The notes under the pieces are model-generated. The model did not search any database. It was not told where the DNA came from and saw only the letters and a program-made list of their open reading frames with translations. The position numbers and the translations under genes were made by a program. DNA of 64,000 nucleotides, taken from NCBI GenBank assembly GCA_016191845.1, contig JACPVF010000017.1:1-64000 (forward strand), in the 5' to 3' direction. Shown piece by piece: positions 14,114-58,115 of this stretch. Every line of letters begins with the position of its first letter. Position 1 is the first letter of the stretch. The stretch is from Chloroflexota bacterium. Its GTDB lineage: Bacteria > Chloroflexota > Anaerolineae > Anaerolineales > Villigracilaceae.

Positions 14114-15082
14114 GTGACGGGTATCACGAACATGGTCATGCCGAAGATCGAGCGGGAAGCTGAGGCTCGAAATTACGGCAAATTTACAATCAGCCCGCTG
14201 GAACGCGGCTACGGGGTCACGTTGGGCAATGCCCTGCGCCGTGTGTTGCTTTCCTCGCTGGATGGCGCGGCTGTGACCTCCGTCCGAATTGCGGACGTTC
14301 TGCACGAATTCAGCGACATCCCCGGTGTGCGGGAGGACGTCATTCAGGTCATGCTGCAGATCAAACAACTGCGCATCAAGCTGGATGGCGTGGATAGCAC
14401 CCGCATGCATTTGGAAGTCCGCGGCGAGGGCACTGTCACCGCCGCCGATATCATCACCCCGGCCGAAGTGGAGATCGTCAACCCTGATCTCTACCTCTTC
14501 ACCGTGGACAACAACAAAACCAAACTCGATATCGAGTTGACGGTCGAGCGCGGCCGCGGGTACTCCCCGGCCAATGACCGCTCCGGGCATATGCCCATCG
14601 GCGAACTGCCGGTGGACGCCATCTTCAGCCCGGTCAAGCGCGTCAACTGGGAGGTGGTCTCCGCCCGCGTGGGCCAGAGCACCAACTACGACAAGCTTGT
14701 CCTCGATATCTGGACCGACGGCACCATTTCGCCCGAGCGCGCGCTCAGCACCTCGGCCAAGTTCCTCATCGACCACCTGCGTTTCATCGCGGGTGTCAAT
14801 GAAGAGACCCTGGCCGTATCGGTGGAGCGCGAGGTGAGCGGAAGCCGTCTGAGCAGTGAAGTGGCCGAGACTCCTGTGGAGGCCCTCGATCTTTCTGTGC
14901 GCGTCTTCAACTCCCTGAAGCGCACGGGCATCACCACCGTCGGTGATGTGCTCGACCTGCTCGAAAAGGGTGAGACAGCCGTCATGTCCATCCGAAACTT
15001 CGGTGAAAAGAGCCTGGACGAACTGCGTCAGAAGATGCGCGAAAAAGGCTTTCTGAAAGACGATACGACCTCTGCGGAGTAA
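14114..15082 (+). CDS. rpoA: DNA-directed RNA polymerase subunit alpha
   Basis: The alpha subunit (322 residues) dimerises to assemble RNA polymerase. The N-terminal domain carries FTISPLERGYGVTLGNALRRVLLSSL. The C-terminal domain (about 253-314) has R263, N266 and K299 at positions equivalent to the E. coli DNA-contact residues R265, N268 and K298. The GTG at 14114 follows AGAGAGGTG. ATG 14132 is an alternative start. A second copy of a CTD-like domain is found in the rpmE gene of this window. Confidence 0.96.
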   Translation: MTGITNMVMPKIEREAEARNYGKFTISPLERGYGVTLGNALRRVLLSSLDGAAVTSVRIADVLHEFSDIPGVREDVIQVMLQIKQLRIKLDGVDSTRMHLEVRGEGTVTAADIITPAEVEIVNPDLYLFTVDNNKTKLDIELTVERGRGYSPANDRSGHMPIGELPVDAIFSPVKRVNWEVVSARVGQSTNYDKLVLDIWTDGTISPERALSTSAKFLIDHLRFIAGVNEETLAVSVEREVSGSRLSSEVAETPVEALDLSVRVFNSLKRTGITTVGDVLDLLEKGETAVMSIRNFGEKSLDELRQKMREKGFLKDDTTSAE

Positions 15083-56059: not shown

Positions 56060-56608
56060 ATGAGATACGCGATCGTTGAAAGCGGCGGCAAGCAATACCG
56101 CGCCGTCGAAGGCGGCACCCTGGATGTGGACCGCCTGCCCGTGGAAGCGGGTGCCAAGCTCGACCTGCCCGTCCTGCTTATATCGGATGGGGATGAAGTT
56201 CTGGTCGGCGCCCCAACCGTCAGCGGCATCCTGGTCAAGGCCACGGTGCTGGCTCACGTCAAAGGCCCCAAGGTTCTTTCCTTCAAGTACCGCCCGAAGA
56301 AGCGCATCCGTGTGCGCGGTGGCCATCGCCACCAGTACACCCGCCTGATGGTCGACTTCATCGGCAAGGAAGGCGAAGAGCGCAAGGTCGAGAAGGCCCC
56401 CAAGGCCAAGAAGGCTGCTGAAGTGGAAGCCGTCGCTGCCGTCGAGGAAGTGGCTGAAAAGCCCGCCAAGAAGCCTGCGGCGAAGAAAGCCACTACTGAG
56501 AAGAAGCCCGCTGCCGCCAAGACCACGGAAAAGAAACCCGCGGCCAAGAAGGCGACCGCCGAGAAGAAACCCGCTGCGAAGAAGACCTCCAGCGAGAAGA
56601 AAAAGTAG
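56060..56608 (+). CDS. rplU: 50S ribosomal protein L21 with long Lys/Ala tail
   Basis: The protein has 182 residues. L21 proper ends near residue 103 (GHRHQYTRLMVDFIGKEG) after the usual start MRYAIVESGGKQYRAVEGG. It is followed by about 80 residues of EKKPAAKK-type repeats, like a histone H1 or HU tail. TGGAGAG at 56044-56050 supports ATG 56060. It is cotranscribed with rpmA and rpmE from the promoter at 55872. Confidence 0.95.
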   Translation: MRYAIVESGGKQYRAVEGGTLDVDRLPVEAGAKLDLPVLLISDGDEVLVGAPTVSGILVKATVLAHVKGPKVLSFKYRPKKRIRVRGGHRHQYTRLMVDFIGKEGEERKVEKAPKAKKAAEVEAVAAVEEVAEKPAKKPAAKKATTEKKPAAAKTTEKKPAAKKATAEKKPAAKKTSSEKKK

Positions 56609-56625: not shown

Positions 56626-56889
56626 ATGGCTCATAAAAAAGGCGGCGGTTCAAGCCGCAACGGACGAGACAGTAATTCCCAGCGCCTGGGCGTGAAGCGC
56701 TACGCTGGTCAGTTCGTGCTCTCTGGCAACATCCTCGTTCGCCAGCGCGGCACGAAGATCAAACCCGGCCTGAACGTGCTGGTGGGCAAGGATGACACCC
56801 TGTTCGCCACCGCTGACGGCGTGGTGATGTTTGATATCATCCACGGCCGCAAACGCGTCAACGTTGTGCCCGAGACCCCGGCGGAATAG
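56626..56889 (+). CDS. rpmA: 50S ribosomal protein L27
   Basis: L27 (87 residues) has the N-terminus [22 protein letters not shown], which reaches the peptidyl transferase centre and needs no cleavage. The core [22 protein letters not shown] is standard. It lies 17 bases after rplU and 11 before rpmE. Confidence 0.97.
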
Positions 56890-56900
56890 GAACTTTACTG

Positions 56901-57374
56901 ATGAAAGAAAAAATTCATCCCACTTACTATCCCGATGCCAAGGTCTCTTGCGCTTCCTGCGGCAAGACTTGGACCACGGGCTCGACCCGCAAGGAACTGC
57001 GCGTGGACGTGTGCTCGAACTGCCACCCGTTCTTCAGCGGTGAGGCTGCCCGCCTCATCGACATCGAAGGCCAGGTGGACCGCTTCTATAAGAAGCTTCA
57101 GGCCCGCCAGACTCACGTCGATGCCCAGCAGGCCCGCGAGGCCGCCAAGGCTGCTCCCGAGCGCACCGTCGAAGATCTCGGCCTGGCCGCCCGCGCCACC
57201 GAGGCCCTCAAGAAGGAAGGCATCGTCACGGTCAACCAGCTCCTGGCGAAACTTGGCGAAGGCGACGAAGCCGTCCTGGCGATCGCTGGCTTTGGCCAGT
57301 CCTCGTTGACCGCGGCCAAGAAGAAACTCCGCGCTCTCGGTTACGAACTCCCCGAAGCTCCCGCTGCGGCGTAA
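56901..57374 (+). CDS. rpmE: 50S ribosomal protein L31 fused to an RNA polymerase alpha-CTD-like domain
   Basis: The protein has 157 residues, twice the normal L31 length. Residues 1-70 are C+ type L31 with zinc ligands C17, C20, C38 and C41 and the [22 protein letters not shown] end. Residues 88-150 closely match the alpha C-terminal domain: [26 protein letters not shown] and [20 protein letters not shown]98 aligns with alpha R265, whereas the Lys equivalent to K298 is Ser. It could recruit L31 to nucleic acid or be a helix-hairpin-helix spacer. The reading frame is continuous. Confidence 0.92.
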
Positions 57375-57545: not shown

Positions 57546-58115
57546 ATGAGACATACCCACGGTTCCATCGAAGTTGTCTGCGGTTCCATGTTCAGCGGCA
57601 AGACGGACGAGTTGATCCGCCGCCTGGTACGCGCCACCATCGCCAAACAGAAGGTCCAGGTCTTCAAACCCGCCATCGACGTGCGCTACGCCGTCGAGAA
57701 AGTGACCTCGCATGCGGGTGCCGATTTCGACGCCATCCCGATTCAAAATGCGCAGGATATCTTTACCCGCATGGACGCCGATACCACCGTGATTGGCATT
57801 GACGAGGCCCAGTTCTTCGATCCCGAAGTCGTGGACGTATCCCGCACCCTGGCCGAGCGTGGCATCCGCGTGATTCTGGCAGGCCTGGACATGGACTTCC
57901 GCGGCGAGCCCTTCGGTCCGATGCCGCGTCTGATGGCCGTGGCCGAGCGCGTGGACAAACTGCACGCCATCTGCATGGTCTGCGGCGATGAAGCTTCCCG
58001 CACCCAGCGCCTGGTCAACGGCAAGCCCGCCCGCTACGATGACCCGGTTGTAATCGTTGGCGCGTCCGAACTATACGAAGCGCGCTGCCGCGTTCATCAC
58101 GAAGTCCCACGCTAG
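57546..58115 (+). CDS. tdk: Thymidine kinase
   Basis: The type II enzyme (189 residues) phosphorylates thymidine to dTMP in salvage. Walker A is GSMFSGKT (13-20), the catalytic base E87 is in DEAQFF, and a lid zinc site is formed by C143, C146, C181 and H184. AAAAGGACTC precedes the ATG. The operon partner downstream is a zinc-ribbon gene and hpt, another nucleoside salvage gene. Confidence 0.95.

Follow-up and report, generated by a model that had tools for sequence, protein, structure and literature searches.

Ribosomal protein bL31 fused to a re-tuned RNA polymerase alpha-CTD-like domain in the order Anaerolineales

Introduction

Why should a core ribosomal protein carry a domain of RNA polymerase (RNAP), and what might that domain hold on to? 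The question is raised by a single gene in the window, by which we mean the whole stretch of 64,000 nucleotides analysed here, where ribosomal protein bL31 runs on into a region resembling the C-terminal domain (CTD) of the RNAP alpha subunit. The first-pass annotation of this DNA described the fusion and offered three possible uses for it, namely a link between translation and RNAP, the binding of UP-element-like DNA, or the binding of rRNA through the helix-hairpin-helix (HhH) fold. We examined the identity, distribution, age and residue signature of the added domain, in the order (Anaerolineales), the class (Anaerolineae) and beyond, and weighed these readings against one another. Loci, genomes and families are cited by our own L, G and f numbers where they have to be told apart.

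Results

The fusion gene and its locus

The features of the window on which the analysis draws are the following.

56901..57374, + strand: rpmE, 157 aa, encoding bL31 with a fused alpha-CTD-like domain; ORF with ATG start, PF01197 and PF03118 both above cut-off, aligned with 58 relatives
56901..57098, + strand: bL31 domain, residues 1-66, with zinc-ribbon C17, C20, C38 and C41; PF01197, Cys invariant in 59 aligned fusions
57072..57149, + strand: helical extension or linker, residues 58-83; a single helix in the predicted model
57141..57356, + strand: alpha-CTD-like (HhH)2 domain, residues 81-152, with R98 and G132 kept and basic K140, K141 and R144; PF03118 on 81-144, PDB profile matches, Foldseek, VIA-align and residue table
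14114..15082, + strand: rpoA, normal alpha subunit with its own CTD, for comparison; PF03118 at 14855-15043 (1.9e-18), ORF in L196, 25/62 identity to the L31 CTD
56060..56608, + strand: rplU (L21), which opens the ribosomal gene cluster and ends in a Lys/Ala-rich tail; TIGR00061, 9.1e-27
56626..56889, + strand: rpmA (L27), ending 11 bases before the fusion gene; PF01016, 1.2e-35
57546..58115, + strand: thymidine kinase gene, next downstream, context only; PF00265, 1.7e-56

The N-terminal residues 1-66 match Pfam PF01197 (Ribosomal_L31) with 84.1 bits (7.9e-24, cut-off 27) and NCBIfam PRK00019.1 with 82.8 bits (cut-off 70), and in a profile search the fusion was the sole L31 match of its 4.6 Mb genome. 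The protein shares with type A bL31 (RpmE) these 66 residues, the four Cys, which form the type A zinc ribbon in 59 of 59 aligned fusions including that of the window, and its standing as the single L31 of the genome. It differs from bL31 in running about 85 residues beyond the L31 domain, into a second domain that is predicted to be folded, whereas the unfused proteins of loci L069-L083 measure 67-98 aa. An identity as rpoA was ruled out for the fusion ORF: the alpha N-terminal domain (NTD) is absent, the N-terminal half is L31, and NCBIfam rpoA models score far below their cut-offs (for example 38.9 against 277).

The reading of the gene as a genuine single-frame fusion was borne out by its relatives. 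Among the best 80 L31 loci of our contig collection, 61 have a CTD after L31 and 60 of these 61 are open in one frame, and a frame or assembly artefact was rejected on this ground. The frame of L064 is broken beside an ambiguous base, L033 and L047 are cut by a contig end, and the match of L057 starts at residue 16; L047, L057 and L064 were left out of the alignment as truncated or frame-broken, which leaves 58 loci and the window. A stop was counted inside the match in three of the 121 order genomes with a single match (G224, G469 and G485) and in one fused genome of the class (G366). Wherever the neighbourhood could be tested, fused loci had L27 directly upstream (60/60), L21 upstream (55/55) and thymidine kinase downstream (55/56), as compared to 11/18 for L27 and 3/18 for thymidine kinase at unfused loci. 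The Lys/Ala-rich tail of the window L21 (56060-56608) gives a weak match to histone H1-like models.

The second domain belongs to the alpha-CTD family

Profile, predicted fold and conservation agree with the earlier proposal that residues 88-150 form an alpha-CTD. In Pfam, PF03118 (RNA_pol_A_CTD) covers residues 81-144 with 35.4 bits (8.8e-9, cut-off 23.8), and the genome search gave 37 bits. BLASTP aligned the domain without gaps to residues 252-313 of the genome's own RpoA, with 25 of 62 residues identical (40%, 4e-12), practically the segment 253-314 given before. A profile built from 59 L31 CTDs was searched against the PDB sequences at E up to 1; RNAP alpha chains made up 51 of the 54 entries matched, with 3gfk_B as the best (2.6e-11), and the first match of another kind was a glycerol-3-phosphate dehydrogenase at 0.31. 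In this search, residues 252-314 of E. coli alpha (10ma_G) correspond to profile positions 14-79, that is, to residues 85-150 of the window protein, and R98 pairs with E. coli R265, as had been proposed. Over the domain the L31 profile exceeds E. coli alpha by three residues (14-79 against 252-314), and it aligns gapless to the own RpoA; this agrees with an origin of the CTD from a Chloroflexota alpha-CTD or from a close relative of one, and the rpoA of the window is likely kin of that source.

The full-length AlphaFold2 model (pLDDT 77.4) joins the two parts by one helix, residues 58-83, and its pTM of 0.42 leaves the mutual orientation of the L31 and CTD domains unsure. Modelled alone, the CTD reached pLDDT 74.2, with core blocks at 77-87, and pTM 0.58. 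Structural searches with this predicted model retrieved alpha-CTDs: the best 50 of 240 Foldseek matches (E up to 10) were all RNAP structures, with no unrelated fold among them, and included 7vpd_S (1.1 A, TMt 0.88); no E-value fell below 0.001, the lowest being 3.1e-3. VIA-align 2 superposed the model on residues 250-316 of E. coli alpha with Z 9.6 (66 residues, 1.9 A), and the N-terminal HhH lobes of RAD51 came next, at Z 8.0 and below. Since the RAD51 lobes follow so closely, the fold is of the general (HhH)2 type and it is the sequence that decides for alpha-CTD. A generic HhH domain, less clearly distinguished by fold alone, was rejected on the PDB profile search and the identity to the own RpoA. 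By sequence and predicted structure, the second domain belongs to the alpha-CTD family.

The fusion is order-wide and old

The four L31 Cys are invariant throughout the alignment of 59 fusions, and the invariant positions of the CTD include R98, G121 and L136. All 61 CTD-bearing loci among the best 80 come from Chloroflexota groups, in a scan that reaches close relatives only. Of 141 genomes of the order that were searched, 122 have an L31 match and 19 do not, and the fused form is present in 122 of those 122; the first-pass annotation had proposed a search of this kind across Chloroflexota rpmE genes as a check on conservation. In 121 of them a single match begins at profile position 1-2 and reaches position 150 or beyond, out of 158, and in G486 the match is split over two contigs. 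One further short L31-like match, devoid of a CTD, lies beside the fused L31 of G527 (G527:C19:418-627), possibly on a contaminant contig.

In the class as a whole the fusion was found in 32 of 150 genomes, under 12 family codes, and in a sample of the phylum in 28 of 301, all of them within the class (25 in the order and 3 outside it). Among the best 150 matches from 263 genomes of other Chloroflexota classes, where fused forms rank on top, there was no fused form. The named strain Longilinea arvoryzae KOME-1 (L041) carries the fused gene. In the fusions of family f8 (L141, L142 and L143) the zinc Cys are missing and the CTD is kept, and L141 exceeds both Pfam cut-offs. Intermediate L31 matches reaching profile position 92-130 (f96, f11 and f97) were considered as fusions and rejected at the loci read in G344, G405, G208 and G371, which have charged or low-complexity tails in place of the CTD. 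Charged low-complexity tails are also present on many unfused L31 proteins of the class. We conclude that the fusion is genuine, read in a single frame, and ancient.

The added domain is under constraint

Over all pairs with an overall pS up to 0.6, the pooled dN/dS was 0.282 for the CTD and 0.155 for the L31 half. Because this set holds saturated pairs (the CTD reached 1.2 in L021/L062 and 0.4-0.9 in other pairs with L062), pairs were re-chosen by the L31 half alone, at dN < 0.05. In the resulting 31 pairs, many of them still with dS > 1, the CTD dN/dS lay between 0.014 and 0.186 in 24 and was undefined in 7. The CTD is under constraint, less so than the L31 half.

These figures bear on the possibility that the CTD is a nearly neutral passenger, a recombination product tolerated as soluble and out of the way. 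The greater variability of the CTD in the pooled comparison and the tails on many unfused L31 proteins of the class speak for a passenger. Such an origin would sit poorly with a loss in 0 of the 122 order genomes with an L31 match, with the constraint in near pairs and with the L31-specific conserved residues described below, and we hold it to be very improbable.

The same domain occurs on other proteins of the class

PF03118 was searched in 35 class genomes, most of them selected because they had several matches; the host ORFs were then read and submitted to Pfam. Besides RpoA and L31, the following hosts were recorded.

L145:1806-2456; L164:1161-1745; L165:701-1282; L166:674-1216: L21 ending in an alpha-CTD-like domain, four genomes (Pfam)
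L149:1475-2062; L169:812-1399; L167:747-1244; L171:270-791; L175:1061-1573: S16 ending in an alpha-CTD-like domain, five genomes
L156:563-1822: S2 with a C-terminal alpha-CTD-like domain, 21.6 bits, below the cut-off of 23.8
L144:2616-4637; L152:1355-3328: NusA with tandem alpha-CTD domains, far above the Pfam cut-off
L186:1-3609: RpoC with an internal alpha-CTD-like insert in Rpb1_3, residues 728-783, 24.7 bits
L190:3-3977: RpoC with an internal alpha-CTD-like insert in Rpb1_3, residues 727-788, 22.6 bits, below cut-off
L178:943-1881: deoxynucleoside kinase ORF, alpha-CTD-like residues 89-149 ahead of the main dNK match at 155-278
L182:643-1140: small HTH protein ending in an alpha-CTD-like domain (28.7 bits)
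L146-L148 and L150: large PglW-like proteins (PADLOC) with two or three N-terminal alpha-CTD-like domains

Searches with fused-form profiles found the L21 fusion in 3 of 150 class genomes and the S16 fusion in 6 of 150, the latter in none of the 32 with a fused L31; a full-length S2 fusion was matched in at least one of the 141 order genomes, one among the matches listed. At L145 the L21 fusion lies in the same cluster as an L31 fusion. For NusA, 21 domains in 19 ORFs were sorted by sequence motif, and Pfam on four of these ORFs returned NusA in 4/4 and PF03118 in 3/4; at L144, NusA lies near an L31 fusion, and the CTD of that fusion is similar to those on NusA. The L31-CTD profile detects three domains in the window genome, on L31, on RpoA and, weakly (6.7e-5), on NusA, where Pfam at 0.001 does not list PF03118. 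A rough binomial estimate for enrichment of ribosomal hosts, taking 3 ribosomal protein families besides L31 out of an assumed 15 host families against 55 out of an assumed 3000 families, gave p 0.0024, which is no proof, the genomes having been chosen mostly for several matches. Among the neighbours of the PglW-like proteins are, at L148, a BrxP-like and, at L147, a TGT-like protein.

A quick tree of these CTDs (71 columns, 141 rows, including two RpoA-labelled PglW-like rows from L104 that are grouped as 'other' in the residue counts below) brought 39 of the 46 L31 rows together in a single cluster of weak support, which also takes in L21, S16, S2 and an HTH protein. Six L31 rows (f92, f112 and f116) fell outside the main cluster, and L132 (G373) stood among the NusA CTDs of G373 and G319 on a starred branch. 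Another starred branch is common to the L21 and S16 of f85, with the S16 of f111, apart from the L21 and S16 of f115, and the L21 and S2 of f128 also lie on one starred branch. Short as the tree is, it suggests that the CTD was copied from gene to gene inside a lineage. We also considered that the L31 CTD might have arisen several times independently; a single origin was not rejected (AU p 0.443).

The range of hosts fits, at the level of compatibility, a link between translation and RNAP, the first of the uses proposed earlier, the domain being predicted on NusA as well as on several ribosomal proteins of the class. The main rival to the explanation that we prefer is accordingly an expressome module, in which the CTD would tie the ribosome to the transcription complex (RNAP, NusA or the nascent RNA that runs between them), as a structural coupling of transcription and translation. 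Its strength is the presence of alpha-CTD-like domains in the class on RpoA, on NusA (in tandem in two), on RpoC (two genomes) and on L31, L21, S16 and S2, with RpoA, L31 and weakly NusA in the window genome itself, and the grouping in G373 of the L31 CTD with tandem CTDs of NusA, its own and that of G319. HhH repeats also close the NusA of other bacteria, so that the domain on NusA may be ancestral, and this weakens the argument, as do the missing PF03118 on the window NusA, the rarity of the full-length S2 fusion (one genome of 141 among the matches listed) and of the RpoC insert (two genomes), and the AU test, which allows one origin for all L31 CTDs. In favour of coupling, NusA is described as a pantograph between RNAP and S2/S5 (PMC7858274), and a review names NusA and NusG as the ribosome-RNAP bridge (PMC10953045). 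On balance we regard coupling of this kind as doubtful. In its widest form, the Anaerolineae alpha-CTD module would be a general connector with a polymerase side (RpoA, NusA and RpoC) and a ribosome side (L31 throughout the order; L21, S16 and S2), coupling the transcribing polymerase and the leading ribosome via contacts of the copies with one another or with shared nucleic acid; this extension we consider unlikely.

DNA-contact residues are altered and a basic ridge is gained

The residues R265, N268, G296, K298, S299 and E302 of alpha are those which we take to contact promoter DNA. Their equivalents, in E. coli numbering transferred via the profile alignment, were tabulated for 98 unique L31 CTDs from two overlapping sets that are not independent. 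All 55 RpoA domains of the class have the full set (RNGKSE), and none of the 98 L31 domains does; among the other hosts it was retained in 6/21 NusA, 2/5 S16 and 1/4 L21 domains. The window protein reads REGSSA, with E101, S134 and A138. The serine noted earlier at the Lys298 position is thus correct for the window, but the family as a whole mostly keeps Lys (K in 64, S in 16 and A in 11 of 98). The R265 equivalent is R in 93/98 and the G296 equivalent G in 91/98, both being missing in 5/98, whereas the N268 equivalent is N in 11, D in 33 and E in 23 of 98, that of S299 is S in 62/98 and that of E302 is E in 6/98.

Other positions have become characteristic of L31. K or R occupies position 140 in 95/98, position 141 in 90/98 and position 144 in 91/98 of the L31 CTDs; position 141 is E, Q or D in 45 of 55 RpoA domains. 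Over residues 88-148 the net charge averages +1.36 in L31 (range -9 to 4) and -0.75 in RpoA, and the basic ridge is weaker on the CTDs of S16 and NusA. Compared with the alpha CTD (PF03118), the L31 copy shares the profile, the predicted fold, 40% identity to the own RpoA and the equivalents of R265 and G296, and differs in lacking the alpha NTD, in its incomplete DNA-contact set, in a basic ridge of its own and in a G at the N294 equivalent (95/98). Judged by these residues, the domain is kept but re-tuned, away from promoter DNA and toward an L31-specific basic surface, and the alteration of the DNA contacts suggests that a part of the transcription machinery has been re-used on the ribosome.

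The residue table bears on two further readings. The first is the UP-element-like DNA binding suggested by the first-pass annotation; a domain of this kind would bring ribosomes to promoters or the nucleoid. The retained equivalents of R265, G296 and K298 speak for such a binder, but the eroded positions N268, S299 and E302, the full set in 0/98 L31 against 55/55 RpoA domains and the three substitutions of the window protein tell against it; this part of the earlier proposal is not supported, and such DNA binding has, in our estimate, only a very slim chance of being right. The second is that free L31 acts as an extraribosomal autoregulator, binding its own mRNA or operon DNA via the CTD. Alpha-CTDs bind DNA, the gene sits in a conserved L21-L27-L31 cluster, and rpmE of E. 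coli is reported to be under autogenous control. Autogenous control of rpmE is named in the title of a reference cited in PMC10931766. The erosion of the DNA-contact set argues against an autoregulator, which would in addition leave the domain on S16, L21 and S2 unexplained, and we rate this reading as improbable.

Discussion

A proposed contact with RNA at the 30S head

The best explanation that we can offer is that bL31 in these bacteria permanently carries a repurposed alpha-CTD, whose basic ridge would hold RNA at the 30S head rather than recruit UP-element DNA; we assign it a tentative probability of roughly 0.42. According to PMC7530986, the N-terminus of bL31 is anchored to 5S rRNA and uL5 on the 50S central protuberance and its C-terminal part crosses to the 30S head (uS13, uS19, uS14 and 16S helix 42); when bL31 loses its last seven residues, subunit association and 100S formation become weaker. 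Because the C-terminal end of bL31 reaches the 30S head, a domain added to it should hang there as well, from the bL31 C-terminal arm beside uS13, uS19 and uS14. Since the domain has given up the DNA set and acquired a basic ridge, we consider RNA at the head its most probable partner: the ridge K140/K141/R144 would most likely hold 16S rRNA of the head, or else RNA on its way past it, and such a hold could stabilise the arm of bL31 together with the contacts of the subunits or the head. The ridge seen in the L31 sequences is also consistent with the third of the uses proposed earlier, that the HhH fold binds RNA. L21, S16 and S2, which bear related domains, are located elsewhere on the ribosome than L31, so that a single docking site on rRNA would not account for every host. 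This tells against the explanation, as do the weaker basic ridge on S16 and NusA, the five L31 CTDs that lack the R265 and G296 equivalents alike, and the unsure orientation of the two domains in the model.

Precedents and novelty

The domains described by the models PRK12278 (L21) and PRK12311 (S2), which we take to be of HhH nature and at home in Alphaproteobacteria, are likewise HhH domains appended to a ribosomal protein, and L21 and S2 are alpha-CTD hosts in Anaerolineae too; their HhH subtype differs from alpha-CTD and, to our knowledge, L31 is not among the hosts of this type. The L21 of the window (70.1 against a cut-off of 281, 67.3 against 193) and that of L145 (84.5 against 281, 116 against 193) remain below PRK12278-type cut-offs. 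The L21 of G064 (L227:3-302) carries a different HhH domain, of the PRK12278 L21 / PRK12311 S2 type, the only such case here. The RpoC model PRK14906, whose name is presumably that of a fusion, has an alpha-CTD-like region on another expression protein, in its C-terminal region, whereas the RpoC inserts found here are internal; the S16 fusion matches its positions 1316-1370 of 1459 at 1.5e-5, far below the model cut-off. PglW of BREX contains, according to a passage of PMC12839542, a domain like alpha-CTD, but is a defence kinase and not a ribosomal protein, and the window protein matches NF033442 (PglW) weakly (0.0019). The HhH domains on L21 and S2 and the alpha-CTD-like regions in the RpoC model and in PglW are precedents for the principle. 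Among the titles and abstracts retrieved by searches of an open-access library, no paper dealt with an L31 that carries an alpha-CTD. The parts belong to known families; what appears to be new is an order-wide, re-tuned alpha-CTD on a core ribosomal protein.

A core ribosomal protein that keeps, throughout an order, the domain which serves RNAP as its promoter-DNA arm is a natural experiment on parts shared by transcription and translation. The named strain and the clear residue signature make it testable whether some bacteria have hard-wired the ribosome to the polymerase or have given the ribosome an extra contact with RNA.
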